Positions 6,843-37,385 of a stretch of DNA of 64,000 nucleotides are shown piece after piece. Under the pieces are notes generated by a model. The model made no database searches and was not told the DNA's origin. It worked only from the letters and a program-made list of their open reading frames with translations. The translations under genes and the position numbers were made by a program. Source of the stretch: Methylophilus sp. DW102 (lineage in GTDB: Bacteria; Pseudomonadota; Gammaproteobacteria; Burkholderiales; Methylophilaceae). The stretch is taken from positions 1,736,001 through 1,800,000 of the forward strand of contig NZ_AP029023.1 of the NCBI RefSeq assembly GCF_037076555.1. The letters are read 5' to 3'. The stretch's first letter is position 1. Every line of letters begins with the position of its first letter.

Positions 6843-7949
6843 TTATTGGCAACCTTCTTGTTTCGTACCTTCTGCACGGATTTCAACACGACGGTTAGGT
6901 TGCAGGCAAGAGATCAATTTCTTGCTTACTTTTTTACCTTCGCACTGAACCACTGGCTCAGATTTACCTTTACCTTCAGCAGTGATCAAGCTGCTGTCTA
7001 CACCTTGAGCAACCAAGTAGTCCGCCACTTGTTTTGCACGGCGCTCAGACAACTTCTGGTTGTAAGCTTCAGAACCGATACGGTCTGTGTGACCAGTGAC
7101 GATCACAGCTTTGATTTCAGGATTTTCTTTGATCTTGGCAGCAACTGCATCCAGTGTAACGCGGCCTTTTTCTTTCAGGTTAGCCTTGTCAAAACCAAAC
7201 AACTCTTCAGCAGAAACAGTCACTGTTTCGTTGACTGGCTTGCAAACAGGTGCTGGCGCTGGTGCAGGAGCTGGTGCCGGTGCTGGCTCAGCTGCAGCCA
7301 CTGGAGCTGGTGCTGGCTCTGGCGTTGGCTCTTCAACCACTGGCGCTGGTGCGCCAAAGCGGAAGATACCACCAATATTAAATAATGTGTTATCAACACG
7401 GCCAGAATCACCAGCTGTTCCACCAGGGCCGGTAGCTACCAAACGTGCTCTGCTCCATTGATGGCGCAGATCAGCTTGGATACCAAACTTATCATTAAAC
7501 AAATACTGGGCACCTAAACCTACGTTAGCCATCCAAGAAGTTTTTTTACCATCAATATCAACGTTTGGAATGTTGTAATCTAAATCATTGCGGGCTGCAC
7601 CAATACCAGCCAACAGGAATGGGCGGAATTTTTCACGACTGAACATATACAATGCGTCCAAACCAAAAGTGGTTTGTTTGTATTTACCACTTGCACCCGC
7701 AATGCCAGTATCTTCATCAGCACGGTTATAACCCAGACGACCTTGAATGTCCCAGTGCTCGCTCAGCTCTTTACCAATGGACAAGAAACCACCACGGGCA
7801 TTATCTGCATCCAGATCACTGTCAGTGTGCATGTAGCTTGCACCTGGCACAACATACCAAGCACCGCGGTACATGTCTTCAGCTTGCGCAGCTTGCGATG
7901 CAAAAACAAATGCAGAAGCAATTGCCAAGCCTAAAAAACTTTTTTTCAT
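6843..7949 (-). CDS. ompA: OmpA family outer-membrane protein
   Basis: A 368-residue porin-like protein. A clear signal peptide (MKKSFLGLAIASAFVFA, cleavage near AQA-ED) precedes an eight-strand-type OmpA barrel (about 25-200), an Ala/Pro-rich hinge (about 205-240) with repeated AP units, and a C-terminal peptidoglycan-binding OmpA domain containing GHTDRIGSEAYNQKLSERRA with the conserved Asp and Arg. Several Cys residues lie in the C-terminal domain. A strong GGAG site lies 8-9 nt before the ATG, and it has its own promoter and terminator, as expected for an abundant protein. Confidence 0.93.
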   Translation of the reverse strand: MKKSFLGLAIASAFVFASQAAQAEDMYRGAWYVVPGASYMHTDSDLDADNARGGFLSIGKELSEHWDIQGRLGYNRADEDTGIAGASGKYKQTTFGLDALYMFSREKFRPFLLAGIGAARNDLDYNIPNVDIDGKKTSWMANVGLGAQYLFNDKFGIQADLRHQWSRARLVATGPGGTAGDSGRVDNTLFNIGGIFRFGAPAPVVEEPTPEPAPAPVAAAEPAPAPAPAPAPAPVCKPVNETVTVSAEELFGFDKANLKEKGRVTLDAVAAKIKENPEIKAVIVTGHTDRIGSEAYNQKLSERRAKQVADYLVAQGVDSSLITAEGKGKSEPVVQCEGKKVSKKLISCLQPNRRVEIRAEGTKQEGCQ

Positions 7950-14357: not shown

Positions 14358-15230
14358 TTACTTTTTACCGCTGCTACGCATGTATTTAAAGAAGTCTGAA
14401 CTTTGGTCAATCACCATCACGTCAGACTTGCTCTTGAAGCTGTTTTTGTAAGCTTCCTGGCTGCGGTAGAAGGCATAAAACTCAGGATTTTTACCAAACG
14501 CCTGGGCATAGACTTCTGAGGCCTTGGCATCGCCCTCGCCTTTAATTTTCTGCGCATCGCGATAGGCTTCGGCAATAATCACTTCACGCTGCTTGTCAGC
14601 ATCGGCACGAATTTTTTCTGCCGCTGCTGCACCTTGTGAGCGCAACTCATTGGCCACCGATTTACGCTCGGCCTCCATGCGTTGATACACGGATTCGCTG
14701 ACTTCTTTCGGCAGATCTACGCGGCGCAAGCGCACGTCCATAATCTGGATGCCCATTTGGCGGCTTTCCTTGTCTGCGCGTTGACGCAGGATTTCCATGA
14801 TCTGCGAACGCTCGCCAGAGACGACATCGTGGATGGTGTGTTTACCAAATTCGGCACGCAAGCCGTCATTGACCATCTGCGACAAACGACGCTCGGCCTG
14901 CACTTCATCGCCACGCACAGAAACGTAGTATTTGGCCGGGTCGATAATGCGCCATTTCACAAACGAATCCACCAGTACGTTTTTCTTTTCACTGGTGATA
15001 AAGCGGTCTGGCTCTTCCCAGTTCAGCGTCAGAATACGTTTGTCGTAATAGCGGATGTTCTCCACCATAGGCATCTTGAAATAAAGACCAGGGTCTTTTT
15101 TCACCGAGACAATTTCGCCCAGACGGAAGACCAGCGCATATTCACGCTGATCGACCGTATATGCTGATGATGTCACCAAGACCAGCAAGACAAACACCCC
15201 AATTAACAAACTTCCAATATTTCTCATCAT
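14358..15230 (-). CDS. hflC: Protease modulator HflC
   Basis: A 290-residue SPFH/prohibitin protein with one N-terminal membrane segment (GSLLIGVFVLLVLVTSSAY) and a long periplasmic SPFH domain (REYALVFRLGEIV), followed by an Ala/Glu-rich coiled coil (residues about 190-240). HflC and HflK form a large cage around FtsH at the inner membrane and moderate its proteolysis. It follows hflK by 21 bp. Confidence 0.95.
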   Translation of the reverse strand: MMRNIGSLLIGVFVLLVLVTSSAYTVDQREYALVFRLGEIVSVKKDPGLYFKMPMVENIRYYDKRILTLNWEEPDRFITSEKKNVLVDSFVKWRIIDPAKYYVSVRGDEVQAERRLSQMVNDGLRAEFGKHTIHDVVSGERSQIMEILRQRADKESRQMGIQIMDVRLRRVDLPKEVSESVYQRMEAERKSVANELRSQGAAAAEKIRADADKQREVIIAEAYRDAQKIKGEGDAKASEVYAQAFGKNPEFYAFYRSQEAYKNSFKSKSDVMVIDQSSDFFKYMRSSGKK

Positions 15231-15251
15231 GTATTTTCCTTGAGGGGCAGA

Positions 15252-16445
15252 CTAGCGATATTCGCGATCACGACTACGCATGGCATCCCTGGAGCGGTCT
15301 AGCACACTCGCGTCAGCCGGTGGCTCGATGGCTGGCTTATCCGCCGGGACGGCAGAGCCAGCTGCGGCATTACTGCCTGCACCACTCATGCTCATGAGTT
15401 TATCCAGTGGCAAATACAGCATGCTGTTGCCATTTTTCTGATCAACCAGCACTTTGCTGGTATTGGCCAAAATATGTTCCTGCGTATCGAGATACAAACG
15501 CTGACGAGTCACTTCTGGCGCCTTGTTGTACTGCGCCAGAATCTGCTCGAAACGGTCTGCATTACCCTTGGCTTCGTTCTCCACCCGCAGCTTGTAACCC
15601 GCGGCCTCTTCGGCCAACCGCGACGCTGTACCACGTGCTTTAGGAATCACATCATTGGCATAGGCCTGACCTTCATTTTTCTGGCGTTCCAGATCCTGCT
15701 TGGCCTTGACTGCATCATCAAATGCCGCCTGTACCTGTTCTGGGGGCTGTGCATTCTGCATGGTGACGTTAACAATATTGACGCCGGATTGATATCTGTC
15801 CAGCATGTCCTGCATGAGCTTTTTCGCTTTGGCAGCCACATCATCCCGGCCTTCATACAGCACGAAGTCCATCTTGCTCTTGCCTACTACTTCGCGGATG
15901 GCTGTTTCTGCCACACCACGCACGCTTTCTTCGGTGGAGCGGTTACTAAACTGATAATCTTCCACCGACTTCAGGTTGTACTGCACTGCCACCTGCAAAT
16001 CAATAATGTTTTCATCATCGGTCAACATTAAAGACTCTTTCAGCTCTTTGCTACGGCCAGATTCACCTTCATAAGAACGGTAGCCCATTTCAATGGTACG
16101 CACCTGCTCGAGGTTCACGTTTTCCACGGTCTCAATCGGAAATGGCAAATGCCAGCGCGGGCCAGGCATGGTGGTTTCCACATGTTTGCCAAAACGTAAC
16201 ACCACACCGCGAGAGCCCTGATCAACAATATAAAAGCCAGAGCCCAGCCAGATCAGCGCCACCAACCCTAAAATCGGGGCCACTGGCAAGGATTGTGGCG
16301 CAGGTGCTGATCCACGCGGACCACCCTGCCCGCCTTTATTGTTGCCAAATAACCGGTTCAGCTTTTGATTCAAATCCTTGAACACCTCGTCCAGATCGGG
16401 CGGGCCTTCATTGTTTTTATTCCAAAAGCCTGGAAATTTTTTCAT
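15252..16445 (-). CDS. hflK: FtsH protease activity modulator HflK
   Basis: A 397-residue partner of HflC. The N-terminus is Asn/Gly/Pro-rich and cytoplasmic, followed by one membrane helix (ILGLVALIWLGSGFYIV, about 58-75) and the SPFH domain (DQGSRGVVLRFGKHV), then a coiled coil and a Pro/Ala-rich tail ending in RDREYR. It lies 27 bp downstream of hflX in the conserved hfq-hflX-hflK-hflC order. Confidence 0.95.
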   Translation of the reverse strand: MKKFPGFWNKNNEGPPDLDEVFKDLNQKLNRLFGNNKGGQGGPRGSAPAPQSLPVAPILGLVALIWLGSGFYIVDQGSRGVVLRFGKHVETTMPGPRWHLPFPIETVENVNLEQVRTIEMGYRSYEGESGRSKELKESLMLTDDENIIDLQVAVQYNLKSVEDYQFSNRSTEESVRGVAETAIREVVGKSKMDFVLYEGRDDVAAKAKKLMQDMLDRYQSGVNIVNVTMQNAQPPEQVQAAFDDAVKAKQDLERQKNEGQAYANDVIPKARGTASRLAEEAAGYKLRVENEAKGNADRFEQILAQYNKAPEVTRQRLYLDTQEHILANTSKVLVDQKNGNSMLYLPLDKLMSMSGAGSNAAAGSAVPADKPAIEPPADASVLDRSRDAMRSRDREYR

Positions 16446-27333: not shown

Positions 27334-28629
27334 CTATTTGGACTCAGGCGGCTCCTGCTCGGAAATCAGTAATTGATTATGGTCCGTTTTAAGATAAAAC
27401 GTCCCATTCTGGTCAATTTGGATGGCACGAATCCGGTAACCACTTAACACAGGTTCGGCATACACCAGAGTCGTGCCCTCTTTGCGCACGCGATACAGCG
27501 TAGTATTACCCATGCCAGCCACAAACAAATCATGGTCCCAAAAATCATTGCGGCCAGTGGCCGGATACTTCACTAGCGGGCCGATGCCGATGGAAGGCAC
27601 AAACGTCATGGCCGGTTTTTCGTAGCCTTCGTGGCTATTAAACTTGTTGCCATAATAGCCACTCATACCGTCGCGCTCGTAAATAGTGCCATAACTGACA
27701 ATCGGCCAGCCATAATTTTTGCCACGTTTGATCAGGTTGATTTCGTCGCCGCCCCTGGGGCCATGATCCGTCAACCATAACTCATTGCTGTCGCGGTCAA
27801 AATACAAGCCGCCAGAGGGGGAGCGGAAACCACTGGCATACACCTCTGCATTCAAGCGCTGCAAGTCTATACGAATCACTTTGCCAACCGAGGTGGTCTT
27901 GTCCTGCACACGGTCCGGTTTGGAAAAATCGCCTATGCTCAGGTACAAGGTCCGCTCGTTTTCGCCCAGCGCCAGTTTGCCACCCACCTGATGTCCGAGT
28001 ATCGGCTCTTTCATCGCCGGCCGGCTAATATAAATTTCGCGGTTAAAACTGACTTCGCTGTTCTCTACGTCGACCTCAAATTCGCTGACAGCCAGTCGTA
28101 CGCCGTTATTGGCCTGATCCCAGGCGGTATAAGCCACATACAGGGTCTTACCCACCAGTAATGAATCCTTGACACCTGACAGTTCACGGCAATACACCAG
28201 CGATTTACTGCTACTTTCATCGGCAGAAGTTTCTTCACCCGGAATAAACTTCGCCAGCGGCTTGCCCGGCTTCACCAGCTCCATGGTTTCATTCTGGCGA
28301 ACAAAATAAACCTCGCCACACTTGCTGATAAACAGTAATAGTTTTTTATCCAGGCGCTCAAACGGGCCCGTCGGGTACTGATCCTCAAACGGTAATTTAT
28401 ACTCTTTGAGGGCTTGCGTCCCAAACACGGACACAATCTTTGGTGTCTCCGGCTCCTGCTTTGCCTCTTTATCTGCTTGGGCAGCATCACTGCCAGAGAG
28501 CAATAACTTGGGCACTGTCGCATCGTCTGCCTGCACCTGGCCCAACCACCCGGACAACAGCAAAACAAAGAAAAAATGAATCAAAGATACGCGCGAGGCA
28601 CGGCTCGCGCTTTTGAGTGAATAATGCAA
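27334..28629 (-). CDS. PQQ-dependent sugar dehydrogenase-like protein (glucose/sorbosone dehydrogenase family)
   Basis: A 431-residue exported protein: signal peptide (LIHFFFVLLLSGWLGQVQA) and a six-bladed propeller of the soluble-glucose/sorbosone dehydrogenase family, with ELWLTDHGPRGGDEINLI and GKNYGWPIVSYG as the clearest family motifs. Members oxidise sugars in the periplasm using PQQ, although many family proteins have no demonstrated activity. The start is a TTG at 28629 with GGGAG six bases ahead; no nearby ATG fits the signal peptide. Confidence 0.8.
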   Translation of the reverse strand: MHYSLKSASRASRVSLIHFFFVLLLSGWLGQVQADDATVPKLLLSGSDAAQADKEAKQEPETPKIVSVFGTQALKEYKLPFEDQYPTGPFERLDKKLLLFISKCGEVYFVRQNETMELVKPGKPLAKFIPGEETSADESSSKSLVYCRELSGVKDSLLVGKTLYVAYTAWDQANNGVRLAVSEFEVDVENSEVSFNREIYISRPAMKEPILGHQVGGKLALGENERTLYLSIGDFSKPDRVQDKTTSVGKVIRIDLQRLNAEVYASGFRSPSGGLYFDRDSNELWLTDHGPRGGDEINLIKRGKNYGWPIVSYGTIYERDGMSGYYGNKFNSHEGYEKPAMTFVPSIGIGPLVKYPATGRNDFWDHDLFVAGMGNTTLYRVRKEGTTLVYAEPVLSGYRIRAIQIDQNGTFYLKTDHNQLLISEQEPPESK

Positions 28630-28716
28630 TGAAGGCTCCCTATTAGTTTATTTTTTCGAGTAGCCTTTGCTAAAAAAGTTTAAAAATAAAATTAAAAGGT
28701 ATTTTTAAACAATATA

Positions 28717-28962
28717 TTATTTATTTTTATTAAAGTAATTTGTGATATAAATTTTAAGCAATAGTCCGGCGATCAGTACGCCCCAAGCGATCAAGGTGAG
28801 CTGAATAAAGGCGGCAAATGCGTCCTGCTGGCAAACCCCTTGCAAGGCGGCAAAAGACGCATCGCACCCAAATGCAACCACGGCAAAGGCAAAGCCTGGA
28901 CCTAAATGCAAAATGGTTAACCCGTAAATTAAGCCTCGCAACACAGCGTCACCCAATCCCAA
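28717..28962 (-). CDS. Hypothetical small membrane protein
   Basis: About 81 residues, with two long hydrophobic segments (10-32 and 50-71) and a two-cysteine loop between them (GCDASFAALQGVCQQ). I do not recognise it. The first start codon in frame is TTG at 28962 without a ribosome site; the frame is open further upstream into the lipoprotein gene, so the start is uncertain. The DNA just after its stop is very AT-rich. Confidence 0.5.
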   Translation of the reverse strand: MGLGDAVLRGLIYGLTILHLGPGFAFAVVAFGCDASFAALQGVCQQDAFAAFIQLTLIAWGVLIAGLLLKIYITNYFNKNK

Positions 28963-29003
28963 ATACTTAAAGCCAGCATTGTAAAGTGGGCTGCACGGAT
29001 AGA

Positions 29004-29639
29004 CTACTGCATGCCTTTAAAAATCTGGTAAGTGCCGCCCGTATAATTGCCCTGAAACGAAGTCGCCCGCATGCCTGCCACTAACTCCATTTCCAGTGGG
29101 ACATGTTCGTAGGAATAAAGCGCGTGCCCTTTTTGAGTGCAGCGCGGACAAGCAATATTGTCATAGCTGTATACGTCCACCTGCACCTCATCCAGCCCGA
29201 CGATACGTTGCGTGTGATAAGCCCCCAGGATGACTTTCTGAATCACCACGCCCGGCGCCAGCTGAATATGCCACGTGACAGGCTCATAAGCCATCAGGCC
29301 GAGAATCATGGGTTTGCTATCGTCAGTGATATTTACAGTGACTATGCGCTGATCACGACCCGCCAGTAAAAACGCATCGCATTCGCCTGGCACAAGTGGC
29401 CCCAACTTGCCCGCTGCCGCCCTGGCTGCCTGACATTGCGCCCACCAGGGTCGCTGGTCTGCCTCTGGTGGCAATGTGCCTTGGTAAACGCCAATCACAT
29501 GCAAAGCCACGCTGGATTCTGCGGCAGATTTGAGGGGGATAGGCTGGGTAATGCTGGTCGGCTTAGGCGTACAACATCCAGCCAACCCTAAGGCCAGGGT
29601 GACAGCAAAAGCACGGTAAAAGGACAGTGAAGATGGCAT
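29004..29639 (-). CDS. Hypothetical lipoprotein
   Basis: About 211 residues from ATG 29639. The N-terminus is a lipoprotein signal (FAVTLALGLAGCC), and the mature part is rich in beta-type sequence with a CPRC pair late in the protein (DNIACPRCTQKG). No family is recognised; the Cys pair could bind metal. An in-frame TTG five codons upstream is an alternative start. Confidence 0.65.
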   Translation of the reverse strand: MPSSLSFYRAFAVTLALGLAGCCTPKPTSITQPIPLKSAAESSVALHVIGVYQGTLPPEADQRPWWAQCQAARAAAGKLGPLVPGECDAFLLAGRDQRIVTVNITDDSKPMILGLMAYEPVTWHIQLAPGVVIQKVILGAYHTQRIVGLDEVQVDVYSYDNIACPRCTQKGHALYSYEHVPLEMELVAGMRATSFQGNYTGGTYQIFKGMQ

Positions 29640-29784
29640 GCTGAATACTTTCAACGCTGGTTTGTTGGCTAGGCATCACGTCATCAAGCATAAAAAGCTT
29701 CATTCGCCGTGATCACCGCATGCATTTATCAATAAATTCACAGCGCAAGCAATAGCCATTTGGGGCTATCAGCCCTGGGTACAA

Positions 29785-30213
29785 CTAACGCTTCAGGGCT
29801 AGCAGCAACACGCCTGCGGCAACCAGTGCCAAGCCCAACCACTCGCGCAAAGACAAGCGCTCACCCAAAAACAGACAGGCAAATAGTGCAACCAGCACCA
29901 GACTGAATTTATCCACCGGTGCCACTTTCGACGCATCACCCAATTGCAGGGCACGGAAGTAACACAGCCAGGAAGCGCCCGTCGCCAGCGCTGACAAGCT
30001 CAAAAACAGCCAGGCACGTCCCGGCAAGCTCAAGGGATTACTCCACTTACCTGCTAGCCAGACAAAGGGCGCCAGCACCAGCGTAATCAGCACGGTACGA
30101 ATCAATGTTGCAAAGTCTGAGTCTATGCCCTGAATACCGACCTTGGCAAAAATTGCCGTTAAGGCGGCAAAACAGGCCGACAGCGCCGCCCAGAAAAACC
30201 AATCCCCCGTCAT
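29785..30213 (-). CDS. EamA-like small transporter (single-domain DMT family)
   Basis: A 142-residue membrane protein with five hydrophobic segments and the EamA end LGERLSLREWLGLALVAAGVLLL. One EamA domain only, half the usual ten-helix transporter, as in small dimeric DMT members. I chose ATG 30213, preceded by GGGAGG six bases upstream; the longer frame runs into the VOC gene. The substrate is unknown. It lies 32 bp after the VOC gene. Confidence 0.82.
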   Translation of the reverse strand: MTGDWFFWAALSACFAALTAIFAKVGIQGIDSDFATLIRTVLITLVLAPFVWLAGKWSNPLSLPGRAWLFLSLSALATGASWLCYFRALQLGDASKVAPVDKFSLVLVALFACLFLGERLSLREWLGLALVAAGVLLLALKR

Positions 30214-30245
30214 TGACGCCCTCCCCGGCTTATCAAAGAAATGTC

Positions 30246-30614
30246 CTAATCCACATTCTGGCCAATGCGCCACAGCACGCCAGAAGGATCTGTCAGACAA
30301 AAATCGCGCATCCCCCATGGCTGCAACTGTATCGGCCAGAGCTTGATGCCATATTTTTGCACAATGCCCGTTTGCTCAATCTGCTGCCACCAGGCATCCA
30401 CATCCGGGACCAGCAAATGCATCATAAAGTTTTCTGCCAGATTTTCTGCACAAAAATCCTGCAACAAAAAACTCACATGCTCAAAGTGGAAATAAGCCAC
30501 CCCGCCACCCTCCGAGGCCATCTTGAAGCCTAAATCAAGATAAAACTGCTTGGATAACGCAAAGTCTTTGCTAGGCACAAACGCCTTGATTTCAGTGACC
30601 TGGAGAGTTGACAT
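30246..30614 (-). CDS. VOC family (glyoxalase/bleomycin-resistance fold) protein
   Basis: A 122-residue protein with the paired beta-alpha-beta-beta-beta units of the VOC fold: EIKAFVPSKDFALSKQFYLD at the start, FHFEHVSFLLQDF, and DPSGVLWRIGQ at the end. A site AGGGG lies 5 nt before the ATG. Substrate unknown: family members include glyoxalases, dioxygenases and binding proteins. It is flanked closely by a coiled-coil membrane protein (14 bp) and the EamA gene. Confidence 0.82.
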   Translation of the reverse strand: MSTLQVTEIKAFVPSKDFALSKQFYLDLGFKMASEGGGVAYFHFEHVSFLLQDFCAENLAENFMMHLLVPDVDAWWQQIEQTGIVQKYGIKLWPIQLQPWGMRDFCLTDPSGVLWRIGQNVD

Positions 30615-30628
30615 CTCAGCCCCTTTCG

Positions 30629-30961
30629 CTATCTAACCAGTAAATAGATCATCGCGATGGTTGTTGTCGCAGATAACCCCAACGACAAAAACAACATGGT
30701 CTTGTATGTCGTTACCTGTGTTCTGGCCTCCTCAGCGGCGTCTTCCAGAGCGAGGATGGCCTGCTGCATTTTTTCTGCCAGCAAGTGAATAGACTCGGCA
30801 TTCTGCAAAGTCGCTGTCTGCAACTCCTCAATCTGCTTGGTCAATACAGGATCAACCTTTTCCGCCTCAGGCTTGGCGGTAAATGCCGGAATGGCAGCCG
30901 TTGCCACCTGCGCCAGATAAGGCGCAACGGCTTTAAGAATGGGTAAAAACTGAATGGCCAC
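30629..30961 (-). CDS. Hypothetical coiled-coil protein with C-terminal membrane anchor
   Basis: About 110 residues: an N-terminal hydrophobic/Ala-rich stretch, a long coiled-coil-like helix (KQIEELQTATLQNAESIHLL and following, about 40-85) and one membrane helix at the end (FLSLGLSATTTIAMIYLLV). I prefer GTG 30961, which has AAAGGA five bases upstream, over the in-frame ATG at 30991 which lacks a site. No family recognised. Confidence 0.6.
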   Translation of the reverse strand: MAIQFLPILKAVAPYLAQVATAAIPAFTAKPEAEKVDPVLTKQIEELQTATLQNAESIHLLAEKMQQAILALEDAAEEARTQVTTYKTMLFLSLGLSATTTIAMIYLLVR

Positions 30962-31079
30962 GTGTATCCTTTCTGCCTTAACGCAATACATTGATGCTCA
31001 TGGTAAAGGCTATACTTGCACGCGTCCAGCATGGATTTCCCGAACTCACGACCACACCCACGTAAGTTTCAGGCTAAGG

Positions 31080-31400
31080 TTACGGTTTAAATAACCAACT
31101 TTTGCGCATTAACACAGCAATCACAAAAGGCCAAAAGAGCGTATTAATCACATCATGCAAACTGGCATTCCAGCGCCAATATCCCAAGCTATGCAGGTCA
31201 TCCCGCATATCTAGCACTTCACCGCAGCAGGCCATGATAAACACAGTGAGCAAGGGCATAAAACGATGCCCCTGCCTACGAAAAATGCACATCGCAACAA
31301 AAAATACCATCAACCCAACATAAATATGCAATGCGTCTTTTGAAAGGCCCGTGACACTCACAATCGCCAACTTGATCGCTTGAAATGTTGAAACCGCCAT
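31080..31400 (-). CDS. Hypothetical membrane protein
   Basis: About 106 residues from ATG 31400 (GAGG five bases ahead; a GTG at 31421 is possible). Three hydrophobic segments and the signature GEVLDMRDDLHSLGYWRW between the second and third. Small proteins like this are common in accessory regions, but I do not know a function. No attC-like site was found in the gaps on either side. Confidence 0.6.
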   Translation of the reverse strand: MAVSTFQAIKLAIVSVTGLSKDALHIYVGLMVFFVAMCIFRRQGHRFMPLLTVFIMACCGEVLDMRDDLHSLGYWRWNASLHDVINTLFWPFVIAVLMRKSWLFKP

Positions 31401-31478
31401 ACGCCCCTCATACTCTGGCACGATCAGCAGCCCCTAGTTGATGACTTTTGCTGAAACCTGATTGCATATTGCCAAGCC

Positions 31479-31793
31479 TCACTCAGATGTTGCGACAAGA
31501 TCAAACTGACTTGCTATTGCTGCAATAACCTCTACCGGCCCCTCAATGCGCCATTCATCATAAGGATCCCACTCACATTTTAGCTTTATGCCAGCCCGTT
31601 TTAAGCGGATGCAGTCGTAATCAATTCCAGCATCAAAGCCACCGTAACGCGCATACATTTTCCAGCCCGTCTGCTCAAGCCATGCCAAAACGCTGGCAAA
31701 CTCTTGATGTCCGATATTGGCAATGGCTGAAAAATCTCTCCTCCGAAACGGCCACATTACCAACCGGCGCATCAAATTGACGAACAGCTTCAT
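31479..31793 (-). CDS. Hypothetical protein, possible former cassette gene
   Basis: A 104-residue soluble protein with a basic N-terminus (MRRLVMWPFRRRD) and an acidic/aromatic second half (DAGIDYDCIRLKRAGIKLK, then CEWDPYDEWRIEGP). I do not recognise a characterised family, although the style resembles orphan proteins often seen in integron cassettes. It lies directly beyond a nested inverted repeat at 31817-31856. There is no ribosome site ahead of the ATG at 31793. Confidence 0.55.
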   Translation of the reverse strand: MKLFVNLMRRLVMWPFRRRDFSAIANIGHQEFASVLAWLEQTGWKMYARYGGFDAGIDYDCIRLKRAGIKLKCEWDPYDEWRIEGPVEVIAAIASQFDLVATSE

Positions 31794-31816
31794 AGCGTTT
31801 TGGAAAGAAGTCTGGA

Positions 31817-31856
31817 TTCTAACGTCTACCCTGGGTGCCCTTAGACAGGGTCTAAC
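31817..31856. repeat. Nested inverted repeat with recombination-core-like ends
   Basis: This 40-bp stretch between two small genes contains TTCTAAC (31817-31823), CTTAGAC (31840-31846) and GTCTAAC (31850-31856), with ACCCTG and CAGGGT able to pair around a short loop. The ends resemble integron core sites (RYYYAAC on this strand), but the spacing is too short for a normal attC. It may be a decayed or atypical site, or unrelated. Confidence 0.4.
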
Positions 31857-31877
31857 CGGAGCGCTGTAAAAAGCCCG

Positions 31878-32102
31878 CTATTTTTGATTGGAGCGCTCTT
31901 TTTCATACTCTTCATAGGTTTTCTTGTTCAAATTCTCTAAACAACGATCAACCTCACTCGGGGGCTGATTGCGGCAATTGTTCTCAGCTCCGCGCTTTAC
32001 CCCCTCATACCACGACTGAGAAGTGCAGCCTGCAATTGCCATGATCCAAAAAGAAAATGAGACAAAGGCGATGTATTGTTTTGTTTTTACTGGCAGATTC
32101 AT
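31878..32102 (-). CDS. Hypothetical small lipoprotein, probable cassette gene
   Basis: A 74-residue protein with an N-terminal signal and lipobox (FWIMAIAGC, Cys near residue 26), then a charged Cys-containing domain (NNCRNQPPSEVDRCLENL), which could form one disulfide, and a Glu/Lys-rich end. It lies beyond the degenerate attC at 32120-32229, so it is probably cassette 3. Function unknown. Confidence 0.58.
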   Translation of the reverse strand: MNLPVKTKQYIAFVSFSFWIMAIAGCTSQSWYEGVKRGAENNCRNQPPSEVDRCLENLNKKTYEEYEKERSNQK

Positions 32103-32119
32103 ATTTAAATGCTCAATAA

Positions 32120-32229
32120 GTGTAGCGTTAGTTTAATGGGCTAGCGAGGATGGCAGCGCAGCCGGAATTATTAAACTTGCGCGCATCGAAGTAAGTTCTC
32201 GCCAATCCCGCTTCATGGATGAGTTAGCC
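32120..32229 (-). other. Degenerate attC site (cassette 2 end)
   Basis: In cassette orientation (minus) the site starts with GGCTAAC, which contains the stop codon of the cassette 2 gene, followed by TGGCGAG that pairs with CTCGCTA about 50 nt later, both next to GGG/CCC. The far core, where GTTRRRY is expected, reads GCTACAC: the cleavage triplet GTT has become GCT. The fold is attC-like but the recombination point looks mutated, so cassette 2 and the next gene may be locked together. Confidence 0.5.
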
Positions 32230-32562
32230 AACATGCTTAACAACAGAGAGCAAATGATAGACTCTCTCTGGCGAAAGTGCATGAGTTAATAATGGGTTGG
32301 CAAGCTCGAAAAGAACCTCACTAACGACAGGTTCGGATAATGCCAAATCATCTCTGCACTCAAGAGCATTGGCCCAGCTCTCAACATCTGACCCAGTGAT
32401 TGAACCCTCGGCAAATAAAGTTAAAACCCGCTCTAGGTTTTCTGGAGTTAAGACAACTACATACTCTTCACTGTCCCATGCAAATTCAGACATTCGTGCA
32501 ATTGCTTGAGCAATTGGTAACTCAGCATAGACAAGAGCTTTGAGAGCATCTACGCGGTTCAT
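32224..32562 (-). CDS. Cassette 2 hypothetical protein
   Basis: A 112-residue acidic, mostly helical soluble protein (VDALKALVYAELPIAQAI; VVVLTPENLERVLTLFAEG). I do not recognise it; the composition would suit an immunity or regulatory protein, but that is speculation. The ATG at 32562 lies almost directly on the attC1 boundary and no ribosome site is present. Its stop codon is inside the attC2 inverse core, as is usual for cassette genes. Confidence 0.65.
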   Translation of the reverse strand: MNRVDALKALVYAELPIAQAIARMSEFAWDSEEYVVVLTPENLERVLTLFAEGSITGSDVESWANALECRDDLALSEPVVSEVLFELANPLLTHALSPERVYHLLSVVKHVG

Positions 32563-32564
32563 AT

Positions 32565-32633
32565 GGTTAACGTTGAGGAAGGGGCTGCGCTTTAGCGCAG
32601 TCCCAGCATAGCGAACTTGACCGTATGTTAGAC
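32565..32633 (-). other. attC1 recombination site
   Basis: 69 bp. In cassette orientation it starts with GTCTAAC (consensus RYYYAAC, containing the cassette 1 stop codon) and ends with GTTAACC (near GTTRRRY). The centre forms a strong hairpin: GGG, an unpaired A, CTGCGC, loop TAAA, GCGCAG, CCC. The single unpaired A is exactly the extrahelical base by which integrases choose the bottom strand. The inner arms (GGGACTG and CAGCCCCTT) resemble those of Vibrio repeats. Confidence 0.85.
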
Positions 32634-32930
32634 ATTGCTTTCCCTATGCGCAAAAAGTTTATTGATTTCCAGATGCGCAGAAATATTACGAGCATATGTT
32701 TTTTCGTTACCGGCCAGCGTAGATGTGACACTCGAAAGATATGTACTTCGTAAATTTCTGCCCAGATGATCGAAGAGCGTGTTGCAGAGCTTTATACCCG
32801 CAATCTTTTGACCATTCAAATGCAGATAACAGGCAAGAGCAAATGTATCTCTGTAGAGCACCCTTTCTGTTGCCGTTTTGCTTTCTTCATCAATGATTGA
32901 ACAAAGTTTATTGATGTCGACGATCTTCAT
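32628..32930 (-). CDS. Cassette 1 hypothetical protein
   Basis: A 100-residue helical protein (KLCSIIDEESKTATERVLYR, FALACYLHLNGQKIAGIKL), no family recognised and no signal or membrane segment. It is the first cassette, next to attI, so the one most likely to be expressed from the cassette promoter. A strong AAGGAG site lies 5 nt before the ATG, and its TAA stop lies within the attC1 inverse core. Confidence 0.7.
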   Translation of the reverse strand: MKIVDINKLCSIIDEESKTATERVLYRDTFALACYLHLNGQKIAGIKLCNTLFDHLGRNLRSTYLSSVTSTLAGNEKTYARNISAHLEINKLFAHRESNV

Positions 32931-32949
32931 AACTACTCCTTGGGATTAT

Positions 32950-32956
32950 GCCTAAC
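32950..32956 (-). other. attI core site
   Basis: On the minus strand GTTAGGC, a perfect GTTRRRY core, lies between the integrase gene and the first cassette. Recombination would occur between its G and TT (plus 32955/32956). Further GTT-containing motifs occur just upstream (32971-32985) and may be accessory integrase-binding sites. Confidence 0.75.
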
Positions 32957-32986
32957 GAAAAGTAGACCCAAAAAACGAACCTAAAC

Positions 32987-33015
32987 TTTATATAGGCCGG
33001 TGGCTGTAAATTCAA
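32987..33015 (-). promoter_or_regulatory. Candidate cassette promoter Pc
   Basis: On the minus strand TTGAAT (plus 33010-33015) and TATAAA (plus 32987-32992) are separated by 17 bp, pointing toward the cassettes. It lies between intI and attI and would give a leader of about 50 nt before the cassette 1 ATG. Position and direction are as expected for an integron Pc. Confidence 0.6.
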
Positions 33016-33085
33016 TAAAATGATTTATCATAATTAAATCAATTATTATTATATTTTTATTACACCTTAATAAAAGGATCGCAGT

Positions 33086-34081
33086 ATGGAAAACACACCT
33101 GAGGTAAAACCAGCACCAAAGTTGTTTCCTTTAATCGTAGAGCGATTGCGTTTAAAAAATTACAGCAACCGCACCGAAGAAGCTTATATACAGTGGATTA
33201 AACGCTTTATTTTGTTTCATGACAAGCGCCACCCCAGAGACATGGGCACGGCTGAAATTGAGGCGTTTTTGAACCATCTGGCGGTAGAGAAAAAGGTGGC
33301 GGCTAGCACTCAAAGTCAGGCGAAAAGCGCCCTGCTGTTTTTGTATGATGAGGTGTTGGAGCGGAATCTCCCAAAACTTGAAAACTTGACCAAGTTACCG
33401 GCAAAGAAAGACTTGCCTGTGGTATTGAGCAAGCAGGAGATACAGGCCGTACTTTCTGGGTTAGAGGGGATGATGTGGTTGATGGTGAGCTTGTTATACG
33501 GTAGTGGCTTGCGGGTGATGGAGTGCTTGCGCTTGCGGGTGGCGGATATTGATTTTGATCGGCAGGAAATTTTGGTGCGCGACCCGCAAGGTTATAAAAA
33601 CCGTACGACATTATTACCAGGAACGTTGGTGCATCCTTTAAAAACACATTTGGCGTCTATTGAGGTATTACATGCCGAGGATTTGAGTAAAGGTTTAGGG
33701 GAAGTCTGGATGCCTGAGGGATTGGCTAAACGCTACCCCAATGCAGGTAAGGATTGGCAGTGGCAATATGTGTTTCCCTCAAGCCGTTTATCGGTTGCGC
33801 AGCAATCAGGCGGAGTTTACCGCCACCATGCGGATGAAAAACCAATACAGCGGGCGGTGAAAAATGTGGCCAAGCAATTAGGCATTAAAAAAACCGTGAC
33901 GCCGAATACACTGAGGCACAGCTTTGCCACACACTTGCTGGAAGGTGGCCATGACTTGCAGACCGTGCAGCGCTTGTTGGGTCATGCCAATGAGGCAAAC
34001 ACTAAAGTCTATGCGCAACTGGTCAACACTGGCGGACGGAGCGTGGCCAGTCCACTTGATGTGATCAAACCAATTGTGTAA
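33086..34081 (+). CDS. intI: Integron integrase IntI
   Basis: A 331-residue tyrosine recombinase. The catalytic residues are visible: Arg in GSGLRVMECLRL, HxxR in LRHSFATHLLEGG, His in LLGHANEANT and Tyr in KVYAQL. The diagnostic integron insertion is present (MPEGLAKRYPNAGKDWQWQY), as is the C-terminal GGRSVASPLD. These separate it from XerC/D and phage integrases. AAAGGA lies 8 nt before the ATG. The gene appears intact, so cassette exchange could still occur. No LexA box was recognised in the very AT-rich upstream region. Confidence 0.95.
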   Translation: MENTPEVKPAPKLFPLIVERLRLKNYSNRTEEAYIQWIKRFILFHDKRHPRDMGTAEIEAFLNHLAVEKKVAASTQSQAKSALLFLYDEVLERNLPKLENLTKLPAKKDLPVVLSKQEIQAVLSGLEGMMWLMVSLLYGSGLRVMECLRLRVADIDFDRQEILVRDPQGYKNRTTLLPGTLVHPLKTHLASIEVLHAEDLSKGLGEVWMPEGLAKRYPNAGKDWQWQYVFPSSRLSVAQQSGGVYRHHADEKPIQRAVKNVAKQLGIKKTVTPNTLRHSFATHLLEGGHDLQTVQRLLGHANEANTKVYAQLVNTGGRSVASPLDVIKPIV

Positions 34082-34091
34082 TCAAGTCTCG

Positions 34092-36284
34092 CTAAGGTGT
34101 TTGCTTTATCATCGAGAGATTTTCACAGCCGATTAATTGGGAAAATTTATCAGCAGGCATGGGTTTGCCAAACAAATACCCCTGCCCTTCTTCGCATTGT
34201 TTGCTTTTAAGGTATTGATATTGCTCTGCCGTTTCTATGCCTTCGGCAATCGACTGTAAATCAAAGCCATGGGCGATATCGAGGGTCGCGCACACCACGG
34301 AGTCGTCTTCTTTGTGTTGCAGCATACCATTGACAAAGGTGCGGTCGATTTTAATGCGTGTGAGGGGATAAGTCTTGAGCAGGCTGAGCGAGGCGTAACC
34401 GGTCCCAAAATCGTCAAAGGCAATACCGACGCCGTGCTGCTTGAGTTTGCGTAGCGTGGCTAGCACAATCTCATCTTGATCCAGCGCGATATTTTCGGTG
34501 ATTTCGAGTTCCAGCGCTTGCGCGGGTAGGCCATGTTTTGCCAACACCAGCATCACCTCATCGACCAACTCTCCGGTATGAAACTGCGCGCTAAATAAAT
34601 TCACCCCTACCCGCAAATGCCCGGCACCTTGGCGACGCCAAAAAGCCAACTGGCTACAGGCTTCATCAAGTACCCAGCTGCCCACCGTGGCGGCCAGTGG
34701 TCCGCTCTCTAGTGCGGATAAAAAAGTAATAGGCGGCAGAAGGCCGCGTAGTGGATGGTTCCAGCGGATCAAGGCCTCGGCGCCAGTGATGAGGCCAGTT
34801 TGCAGGTTCACTTGAGGCTGGTAATACAACAAAAACTCGCCTTCATCGACAGCACGATGCAATTCAAGTGCATGTTGGCGGCGCGATACCGCGGCCTGGC
34901 GCAACTCAGGCACAAACAAACAGGCGCGGCCACGTCCTTGTGCCTTGGCTTTGAATAAAGCAAGGTCGGCATTGCTGACTAACTCTAAGGCTTCAAGCGT
35001 ATGCAAGGGCGAAAGCGCAACTCCGCAACTGGCAATCACCCTCACAGACTGGCCTTGCATTTGCATCGGTTGCTCAATGCCATCAATCAGTTGCTGCGCA
35101 AACTGAGTGGCATCAGTTGGCACTTGCAGGCCGGGCACGACGACCGCAAACTCATCCCCACCCATACGCGCCACCAGACCATGCGCAGGGACAATCCGTA
35201 ATAACCGTTGCGCGATTTCTCTCAATACGGCATCGCCAACGGTCCCCCCCATGGTGTCATTGATATCTTTAAAACCATCCAGATCTATCATAAACACCGC
35301 GGCAGCATGTGGCTGGCTGAGTGTTTCTTCAACAAAACGGTAAAAGCGGACCCGGTTATACAGGCCGGTGAGTGTATCGAGCAACGACTGCTTGCTTTCT
35401 GCTTGCAGCGTGGCTGCAGTGGCTGGCACGGGCTTGAGCACTGCTTCGAATTGCAGCTGGCCTTCAGCTTGCCAGGAAAATAACGATAGATTGACCAGAA
35501 AGCTCGTCCCCTCTTTATGAAGCCCTGTGAGCTCACACGAACTCGCCACACGGTCTAGTGACCGAGACTGCAATATGGTGTCTATTTTCTCTTGTAAAAG
35601 CGCAGCATCCGAGCTGGAAAACAATGTTTGCAGTGGGCGGCCCTCACCCTCGATGAGACGGTAACCAAACATATCGGCCGCGGCCTGATTCCAGGCAATG
35701 ATCTGCTTGGCGGCATTAAACCAGACGATAGGGGTCGCAGCATGCGCCGCATATTCTTCAAAGTTTGGCCGGGTACGGCTGGCTGAAATTTCAATGCGGC
35801 GTAATTCAAGCCGGTCAGATACCATTTGCGCCAGCGCCCTCAATCTGGCCTGGTCTTCTAAAGAAAAATCAAAATGAGGTTGGTGGTCGACAATACACAA
35901 GGCGCCTAAGGCCAGGCCTTCTGGTGAAAGCAACCTGACCCCAGCATAAAAACGAATATTCGCCTCACCCGTGACCAGCGGATTGTCATGGAAGCGCTCA
36001 TCCAGCAAGGCGTCTGGGACGACCATGACCTGGTTTTCGTTGATAGCATGGGCACAAAAAGAAACATCACGGCGCATATCCATTTCGCCAGCACCGACGG
36101 CGGCGGCGAAAAACACATGGTCGCTACCGATCATATTGACGGCCGCAATCGGCATGCGAAACATGCGTGCTGCAATGTCTACTACCGGCTCCAGATTGGC
36201 AATGACTTCTGGCTGATGCAGGCCATGGTCAAATAGCGCTTGCAACCTTTGCGGTTCATTAGCAGGTATTACTGGGCATTTCAT
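34092..36284 (-). CDS. GAF-PAS-GGDEF-EAL c-di-GMP signalling protein
   Basis: About 730 residues. A GAF domain (about 20-165; MDMRRDVSFCAHAI, ALCIVDHQPHF), a PAS domain (about 185-300; WFNAAKQIIAWNQAAADMFG), a GGDEF domain with intact GGDEF near residue 375, and an EAL domain with EALIRW near 503, AFDDFGTGYASL, RIKID and AEGIE. Both catalytic motifs look intact, so cyclase and phosphodiesterase activities are possible. ATG 36284 has GGGGG ahead; a GTG lies one codon upstream. No membrane segment. It is convergent with intI, 10 bp apart. Confidence 0.92.
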   Translation of the reverse strand: MKCPVIPANEPQRLQALFDHGLHQPEVIANLEPVVDIAARMFRMPIAAVNMIGSDHVFFAAAVGAGEMDMRRDVSFCAHAINENQVMVVPDALLDERFHDNPLVTGEANIRFYAGVRLLSPEGLALGALCIVDHQPHFDFSLEDQARLRALAQMVSDRLELRRIEISASRTRPNFEEYAAHAATPIVWFNAAKQIIAWNQAAADMFGYRLIEGEGRPLQTLFSSSDAALLQEKIDTILQSRSLDRVASSCELTGLHKEGTSFLVNLSLFSWQAEGQLQFEAVLKPVPATAATLQAESKQSLLDTLTGLYNRVRFYRFVEETLSQPHAAAVFMIDLDGFKDINDTMGGTVGDAVLREIAQRLLRIVPAHGLVARMGGDEFAVVVPGLQVPTDATQFAQQLIDGIEQPMQMQGQSVRVIASCGVALSPLHTLEALELVSNADLALFKAKAQGRGRACLFVPELRQAAVSRRQHALELHRAVDEGEFLLYYQPQVNLQTGLITGAEALIRWNHPLRGLLPPITFLSALESGPLAATVGSWVLDEACSQLAFWRRQGAGHLRVGVNLFSAQFHTGELVDEVMLVLAKHGLPAQALELEITENIALDQDEIVLATLRKLKQHGVGIAFDDFGTGYASLSLLKTYPLTRIKIDRTFVNGMLQHKEDDSVVCATLDIAHGFDLQSIAEGIETAEQYQYLKSKQCEEGQGYLFGKPMPADKFSQLIGCENLSMIKQTP

Positions 36285-36411
36285 CACAACCCCCTAGGCA
36301 AAGAGCATAGATGAATGACATGTCAATTTGCTTTTATGTCAATTCATAAAATTAAATTTTTTGTAACACTACTAATTTTATGCCATCAGCGCAAGCGCGC
36401 TGATCAAAGGG

Positions 36412-37326
36412 TTATTGACTGTCGCCGATGTGATTTTGGCCGCGCAATCTGGCCAGCTTCACCTGCTTTTGACGCTCACGCAAAGACTCTTTCTTTTCTG
36501 CGGTCAATTTTTCGTAGCAATAAGGGCAAGAAATACCGGCTTCATATTGCTCACTTTGCATTTCCTCTGTGGTGAGTGGCATGCGGCAGGCATAACACTG
36601 GTCATGGTCCCCTACCTCCAGGCCATGCTTGACCGCCACGCGCTGGTCAAACACAAAGCACTCGCCTTCCCACAGGCTTTGCTCTTTGGGCACGGTTTCC
36701 AGGTATTTAAGGATGCCGCCTTGCAGGTGATACACCTCTTCAAACCCTTGTTGCTTCATGAAAGAAGAGGCTTTTTCGCAACGGATGCCGCCGGTACAGA
36801 ACATGGCGACTTTTTTGTGCTTGGTTTTATCCAGGTTTTCGGCAACATATTTGGGAAACTCACGGAAGGTGGTGGTTTTCGGGTCCACCGCGCCTTTAAA
36901 GGTGCCAATATGCACTTCATAGTCATTGCGTGTATCCAGCACAATGACGTCCGGGTCTGAAATAATGGCATTCCAGTCTTCGGGCTTAACATAGGTGCCC
37001 ACGACCAGATTAGGATCTACCTCTGGCACGCCCATGGTGACGATTTCTTTTTTGAGCTTGACCTTCATGCGGTAAAACGGATGACTATCGGCCCAAGATT
37101 CTTTGTGCTCGAGATCAGCCAGTCGCGGATCCTGGCGCAAGTAGGTGAGCACGGCGCGGATATCTTCCGGCTTGCCAGCAATGGTGCCATTAATCCCTTC
37201 ATGCGCCAACAGCAAGGTGCCTTTAATCTGGTGTTGCTGGCAAGTCTCTAAAATCGGTTGTTGCAGGTCTTTATAATTATCCAGCGTGACAAATTTATAG
37301 AGGGCAGCGGTGAGATATTGGCTCAT
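36412..37326 (-). CDS. trhO: tRNA uridine(34) hydroxylase (rhodanese domain)
   Basis: About 304 residues of the YceA/TrhO family. An N-terminal ferredoxin-like domain ([17 protein letters not shown]) precedes a rhodanese domain with active Cys in [12 protein letters not shown], and a C-terminal Cys-rich zinc-like region (CYACRMPL and CPYCYEKL). TrhO performs oxygen-dependent hydroxylation of U34 in tRNAs. ATG 37326 ([12 protein letters not shown]) is the family start; 19 upstream codons are not conserved in style. Confidence 0.93.
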
Positions 37327-37385
37327 GAGAAATCTGGCTTGATTGCAAAATCGCGATTTTACCACTCTAACCCACTGATGCAAAA

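Follow-up and report, generated by a model that had tools for sequence, protein, structure and literature searches.

Chromosomal integrons and CALINs

A methylotroph integron has been described in Methylobacillus flagellatus (PMC2426708), and Methylophilaceae attC sites have been clustered previously (PMC11089894). Frequent inactivation of the integrase gene, intI, is well known in chromosomal integrons (PMC2426708, PMC3108266). Clusters of attC sites lacking an integron integrase (CALINs) are known at recurrent loci in Xanthomonas and are said to be mobilisable in trans (PMC12444791); in one survey they numbered 2961 against 2760 complete integrons (PMC9024848). The same source calls attI sites outside class 1 poorly described, and attI x attI-like reactions at secondary sites have been noted (PMC10127599). 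The subject here is an integron of Methylophilus sp. DW102, whose intI lies in a 64,000-nucleotide stretch of DNA (the window; bases 1736001-1800000 of genome G000, a single contig of 3,017,312 bases, 99.99% complete), together with four satellite arrays of attC sites elsewhere in the same genome that begin at attI-like cores and have no intI. The cassettes of all four satellites differ between two strains, and the integrase carries Asn in place of a catalytic His. That this is a distributed integron, in which the Asn-type integrase would serve the solo attI arrays in trans, is a reading to which we give about an even chance.

Cassette turnover at arrays without intI

A genus attC model (R1), built from loci L043, L046, L047 and L049 of genomes G073, G064, G065 and G067, gave 21 matches over the G000 genome, none of them inside the window. 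Apart from a lone match at 2126 kb (E 0.2), they lie in four clusters at E <= 0.012: 12 at 1173377-1177983 on the minus strand, 3 near 1277 kb, 3 near 1648 kb and 2 near 949 kb. No intI match at E < 1e-3 was found in the four stretches that hold these clusters (L145-L148), and the only intI of G000 over the family cut-off is that of the window. With at least two attC sites each and no neighbouring intI, the four satellites are CALINs by definition. Every cluster begins at an attI-like core. At 1648 kb the core belongs to the 127-bp module found also ahead of the window intI, the two copies being 78% identical, and G062 and G064 have this module at the corresponding chromosomal position.

All four satellites differ between G000 and G060, a strain labelled as the same species, whereas the array beside intI is unchanged. 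The main flank alignments are 94-98% identical; the left flank at 1173 kb also contains a gap, and one 150-bp piece of it matches at 87%. At all four satellites the BLAST alignments stop no more than 2 bases from the GTTRG core. A base-by-base print-out shows the switch at the core itself for the 1173-, 1276- and 1648-kb satellites; at 948 kb the register is off by one base, the G060 core there being AGTTATG. At 1173 and 1648 kb identity resumes within the last attC; at 948 and 1276 kb it does so 0.4-0.7 kb past the last one recognised. Between the cores and these points the matches consist of attC pieces only, plus stretches of 81 and 61 bp at 948 kb.

Some of the cassettes can be traced to other genomes. 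The first cassette at 948 kb has a counterpart in Methylophilus sp. Leaf416 (99.5% identity, 374 bp), and G060 lacks it at that place, which points to capture after the two strains had split. The 1173-kb array shares parts, at 92-95% identity, with cassettes of G072, of G067 and of a second integron of G060, and in G065 one cassette stretch occurs both in the intI array and in a satellite (96.4%, 333 bp). Cassettes thus circulate. When ten satellite cassette proteins were searched against Pfam, one matched: the first cassette of the 1648-kb satellite (L148, 6825-7220) encodes a WapI-like immunity protein (PF24716, 37.3 bits against a cut-off of 27).

An attI pattern, GYYTRHWTWWCGTTRG, matched 42 times in 16 of 22 genomes, against 14 times for its reversed control. 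Sorted by hand, the matches fall into 15 that adjoin an over-cut-off intI, 17 that lack intI but have a same-strand R1 attC no more than 1 kb away, and 10 with neither. Five of those 10 are one recurrent sequence, and another, G074:C1:1507353, has a weak attC 1.6 kb away. G000 has five matches, one for each of its five arrays and in the correct orientation; these and several others were already known when the pattern was drawn up; examples of those that were not are G060:C1:351042, G066:2089079, G069:C6:85315, G077:C15:9325 and G078:C32:133075. The absence of a match at the G060 948-kb site and in G068, G061, G063 and G075, all with R1 attC sites, counts against the pattern. The sequence GCCTGATTATCGTTGG, which matches the pattern once each in G064, G065, G072, G073 and G074 with no array found nearby, is probably conserved and unrelated.

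An integrase with asparagine in box II

The window intI occupies 33086-34081 on the plus strand, an open frame of 331 codons for amino acids (aa). Its product scores 409.6 bits with the integron integrase family TIGR02249 (cut-off 265), and far under the cut-offs of XerD (128.9 bits against 329.6) and XerC (122 against 335.15). These scores rule out a XerC or XerD identity and bear out the original prediction, made from the sequence alone, that the protein is an IntI. Among solved structures, the best match in sequence is 2A3V, an integron integrase from V. cholerae, over residues 19-325, the alignment spanning the IntI-specific insertion; the predicted fold of the window IntI (mean predicted local distance difference test score 85.2, predicted template-modelling score 0.66) superposes on three 2A3V chains with template-modelling scores of 0.72-0.76, normalised to query length. 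At the insertion and attC-binding positions listed for VchIntIA as L202, P203, K209, Y210, P211, R239, H240 and H241 (PMC3108266), it has M, P, R, Y, P, R, H and H, which places it in the family; L202M is among the changes permitted by that list and K209R is not.

The catalytic set R, K, H, R, H, Y is incomplete. R143, K171, R277, H300 and Y309 are present, and the box-II His (H267 of VchIntIA, H277 of IntI1) is replaced in the IntI alignment by Asn274, encoded by AAT at 33905-33907 on the plus strand. The prediction of an intact integrase with the family insertion therefore stands for the open frame and for the insertion, and falls short at the active site. Among 116 distinct IntI segments the box-II residue is His in 108, Asn in 7 and Gln in 1 (G075), in a non-random sample made up of the window, the 30 best-scoring family matches given loci, the genus loci and the 80 best relatives. 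The Gln form (locus L045, intI at 15213-16190) belongs to a lineage apart from the Asn clade, on a long branch. The Asn types, from G000, G060, G061, G062, G068, G073 and G074, form a single Methylophilus clade, supported at 100/99, in a tree of 31 rows that covers residues 61-331; six of them have AAT as codon 274 and the seventh has AAC. All eight non-His forms retain K171, R277, H300 and Y309, and seven retain R143, which is Lys in G061. No stop or frameshift occurs in the Asn-type copies aligned.

The intI genes of G000 and G060 differ by 22 synonymous and 7 nonsynonymous changes, a ratio of nonsynonymous to synonymous rates (dN/dS) of 0.085, with P ~1e-9 for so few nonsynonymous changes; other intI pairs are near or at synonymous saturation. 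The open frame and this ratio rule out a pseudogene. Between species, dN is 0.12-0.24 for Asn-clade pairs and 0.01-0.05 for His-type pairs, except those with G059a (0.15-0.17), so that the Asn clade evolves faster, yet under constraint. The window intI is under purifying selection, and the Asn form is kept by it across the seven-genome clade. The G073 intI (locus L043, 3308-4291) is a mosaic, with 95% identity to the His-type G064, G065 and G072 over the first 60 residues and Asn-type sequence in the remainder. Because of this, the G073 array probably arrived with the exchange, and its 10 R1 matches beside an Asn-type intI were set aside as proof of Asn-type activity.

A mobile origin of the window intI was also rejected: the best of 8 listed plasmid matches is 50.9% identical, and all 5000 matches listed are below 60%. 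A scan of 22 loci from 330 bp upstream to 60 bp downstream of the start of intI (in one locus, from only 20 bp upstream) found no LexA site (CTG[T/C]-N8-[A/G]CAG).

The array beside intI

The G060 locus is 97.55% identical to that of G000 over 16.4 kb and retains all five open reading frames (ORFs) from intI to a 120-aa flank ORF. Divergence is 0-1.7% over 32103-32930, 2.6% in the region upstream of intI and 2.9% in intI, and reaches 5-14% across stretches of 31080-32102. This patchiness at 31080-33200, relative to the G060 locus L036, suggests recombination between strains at the locus.

The attI and promoter region lies on the minus strand at 32950-33077, as do the cassettes that follow it; the module recurs without intI at G000:C1:1647688-1647814. 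The predicted attI core, GTTAGGC, is found at 32950-32956 in surroundings that are conserved in relatives. The candidate promoter Pc (TTGAAT-17-TATAAA) fared less well: its letters are present, and a consensus promoter scan does not list it (one other site was found, with 1.0 expected by chance), nor is TTGAAT conserved in relatives. Cassette 1 (32628-32930) encodes 100 aa, with relatives 39-42% identical in three plasmid records, and cassette 2 (32224-32562) encodes 112 aa. No NCBIfam, Pfam or PADLOC family matched either protein at curated or set cut-offs, so the genes are as unrecognised as foreseen; PADLOC matched none of 9 proteins submitted, and Rfam at gathering scores and a tRNA search returned nothing in the window.

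The attC site between the two cassettes, attC1 (32565-32633), has extra bases in its 5' arm relative to the genus consensus. It has the expected box ends, and it folds better than shuffled sequences (z -2.49 on the plus strand, -2.18 on the minus). The genus stem-loop motif GGGAC..CTAAAG..GCCCCTT, written after attC1 had been seen, occurs once in the window, at this site, and in none of 200 mononucleotide shuffles. R1 missed the site with default filters and gave a partial match of 9.8 bits (E 0.46) with filters off. The hairpin that was predicted here thus has its box ends, fold and motif, without a clean model match. Beyond cassette 2, attC2 (32120-32229) aligns with the class of about 111-bp attC sites of relatives, and its R' box has decayed to GCTACAC (GCTAGAC in G060) rather than GTTRRRY. 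Its fold (32127-32217) is no better than that of shuffles (z -0.20 and -0.97), and its match to a second model, R2, is by construction, attC2 having been in the R2 alignment.

Box ends alone prove little, since a loose box-pair scan of 28000-36000 returned 10 rows; those at 29580 and 31313, and an R1 match at 31655 (E 0.2, filters off), were taken as chance. An extension of the array left to 28600 was rejected, there being no convincing attC in 28000-32120. A 74-aa ORF past the last attC (31878-32102, minus strand) is probably flank and not cassette, because its homologue in G067 (67% identical) likewise lies beyond the last attC. Two further minus-strand ORFs (31080-31793; 113 and 104 aa) have no recognisable attC between them and are unsupported as cassettes. 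With no convincing attC among these three ORFs at 31080-32102, the local cassettes are counted as two, which agrees with the prediction of at least two orphan cassette genes in the expected geometry with attI and attC. A lone attC-model match at 7477-7574 (E 0.14), distant from the arrays, is probably chance.

No R1 attC stands beside intI in the window at E <= 0.05, and the array is not a homogeneous canonical one. By the same threshold there is none in seven of the eight non-His loci, against 10 in G073, and at least one in 11 of the 13 His-type genus loci, the other two being G059a and G070, where the contig ends; given that the loci are related and that R1 was built from some of them, attC presence by IntI type is a pattern and not a test. 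Since the window array is conserved in the second strain and its attC sites are degenerate, it is not where cassettes turn over. The original prediction had proposed comparing strains for turnover here; it is seen instead at the four satellites, outside the window.

Genomic position

Over-cut-off intI genes occur in 67 of 187 family genomes. Eighteen fetched loci were compared, of which 13 are genus intI loci of the window type. The relatives with the same locus include M. methylotrophus DSM 46235 (G062), Methylophilus sp. QUAN (G074), sp. Leaf416 (G068) and M. aquaticus (G059), as expected of the predicted chromosomal integron of a methylotroph. All flanking genes of the window locus are on the minus strand: on the left a glyoxalase-like gene (30246-30614) and the 120-aa ORF (30629-30991), on the right genes at 34092-36287 and 36412-37383. 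We take the right-hand pair to be of the GGDEF/EAL type and the rhodanese type, respectively. The glyoxalase-like gene is on the array side in 12 of the 13 loci, G078 having the 120-aa ORF only, and one or both of the rhodanese-type and GGDEF-type genes are on the other side in 11 (not in G066 or G078). The left flank lies between about 0.5 kb (G075) and 12 kb (G067) from intI. With intI, attI and attC cassettes together at a conserved chromosomal place, the locus has the layout of a sedentary chromosomal integron.

How the cassettes may have moved

G000 has the Asn-type enzyme only, so that the remaining IntI acting in trans is the simplest account of the turnover. The Asn-type IntI would still be a recombinase, perhaps a slowed one, capturing and excising cassettes in trans at solo attI sites; the satellites would be former complete integrons that lost intI and kept attI; and the array beside intI would have frozen through decay of its own attC sites. 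The fuller picture, of an Asn-site integrase detached from a frozen array and capturing in trans at four solo attI sites over about 0.7 Mb, one enzyme with several cassette outlets, is put forward tentatively, at somewhat less than an even chance. In its favour stands Cre H289A, which still recombines, with lower efficiency (PMC4381057). The origin proposed for the satellites has traces in intI remnants, found in 5 of 34 satellite-type loci searched (L154, L159, L163, L169 and L170), with best matches of 36-75 residues and one of 133 residues at 29% in L170; at least some satellites are therefore integrons that lost intI.

Several points weigh against the Asn-type enzyme as the agent: i) Flp H305A cleaves without completing recombination, the box-II His (H267) is listed as non-mutable (PMC3108266), and the window IntI also has Arg at the K209 position of that list; ii) the loci of non-His type without canonical attC sites beside intI, seven of eight, look as if local capture had ceased; iii) several solo attI sites look more like those belonging to other IntI types than like that of the window; iv) G063 has 9 R1 attC sites (L159, L179) and no over-cut-off intI, only a 41-residue remnant in L159, so that arrays alone are no sign of activity; v) the turnover comparison is between two strains; and vi) a plasmid-borne or lost integrase, or exchange of alleles between strains, could have moved the cassettes.

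The main rival is that the Asn-type IntI has lost recombinase activity and persists because it binds DNA, in a regulatory or site-protecting role, the cassettes having been moved by other integrases, now lost or broken, such as a b-type. We regard this as rather unlikely. The catalytic His is replaced throughout the Asn clade, and MrpR, a protein of the tyrosine-recombinase fold with Asn at the box-II position, acts as a repressor and has no recombinase activity (PMC10516654). By eye, four genomes (G061, G062, G068 and G074) have a lost or altered local attI core. Candidates for the other integrase exist in the genus: three intI occur in G060, of which one is Asn-type, another b-type and the third an N-terminal fragment (residues 11-145); by eye, a b-type attI with no intI stands at the head of the Leaf416 array; and L170 holds a remnant of a b-type intI. 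The G060 b-type gene is over the cut-off and frameshifted near residue 64, possibly by an error of the draft assembly; its integron (L037, G060:C7:718000-722951) has 6 R1 attC sites and lies near a contig end. Since the b-type is frameshifted and the third gene is a fragment, the Asn form is the only intI without a visible break in either strain, a point for the distributed integron. Two things speak against this rival: MrpR has lost catalytic arginines and the H/W residue, which the Asn-clade and Gln forms have kept to the extent given above for R277, K171, H300, Y309 and R143, and no other intI or remnant is present at the four G000 satellites, nor any over the cut-off in that genome.

It is improbable that the satellites differ through homologous recombination of whole array alleles in conserved flanks, with no recent role for IntI in the two lineages. 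Recombination in flanks does occur, as the mosaic of low and high divergence in the window indicates, and the G073 intI joins Asn-type and His-type sequence; but identity is unbroken up to the attI core at all four satellites, and the variety of alleles would still require site-specific recombination somewhere in the species. That this is an ordinary small chromosomal integron, whose IntI works on its own attI and array with an inconsequential change of His to Asn, is very improbable: intI, attI and two attC sites are in the expected geometry, but the local array is the same in both strains, its attC sites are degenerate, and His is the rule among the IntI sampled.

If the distributed integron is real, satellite CALINs would be working parts of a multi-site integron, not degraded remains, and those that keep attI would give a direct route to attI sites outside class 1. 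A selected Asn form would offer a natural experiment on the active-site residues that an integrase can dispense with, and would call into question rule-based calls of inactivity for such enzymes. No report of attI-headed CALINs that turn over, or of an Asn-type IntI clade, was found in the accessible parts of the open-licence literature, which is weak evidence of absence.

Comparison with known systems

Like the sedentary chromosomal integrons of Xanthomonas (PMC12444791) and Methylobacillus flagellatus (PMC2426708), the window locus has intI at a genus-conserved place, an attI, a promoter region and attC cassettes mostly of unknown genes; in those integrons, too, intI function is often lost. 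Unlike them, it has an array reduced to two cassettes, whose attC sites are degenerate, and its catalytic His has given way to Asn in a frame kept under selection. The satellites resemble CALINs (PMC9024848, PMC12444791) in being attC clusters of 2 to 12 sites that stand at recurrent chromosomal places apart from intI. The usual reading of CALINs is as degraded integrons; those of G000 differ in being headed by attI-like sites and in complete cassette turnover between two strains. The integrase resembles those predicted to be inactive under the rules of PMC3108266, where a missense change at H267 is treated as inactivating, and differs from them in being clade-wide, free of stops and frameshifts in the copies aligned, constrained (as the low dN/dS indicates) and otherwise complete in its catalytic residues. 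With MrpR, the SPbeta repressor (PMC10516654), it shares Asn at the box-II position; unlike MrpR, it retains the catalytic arginines.

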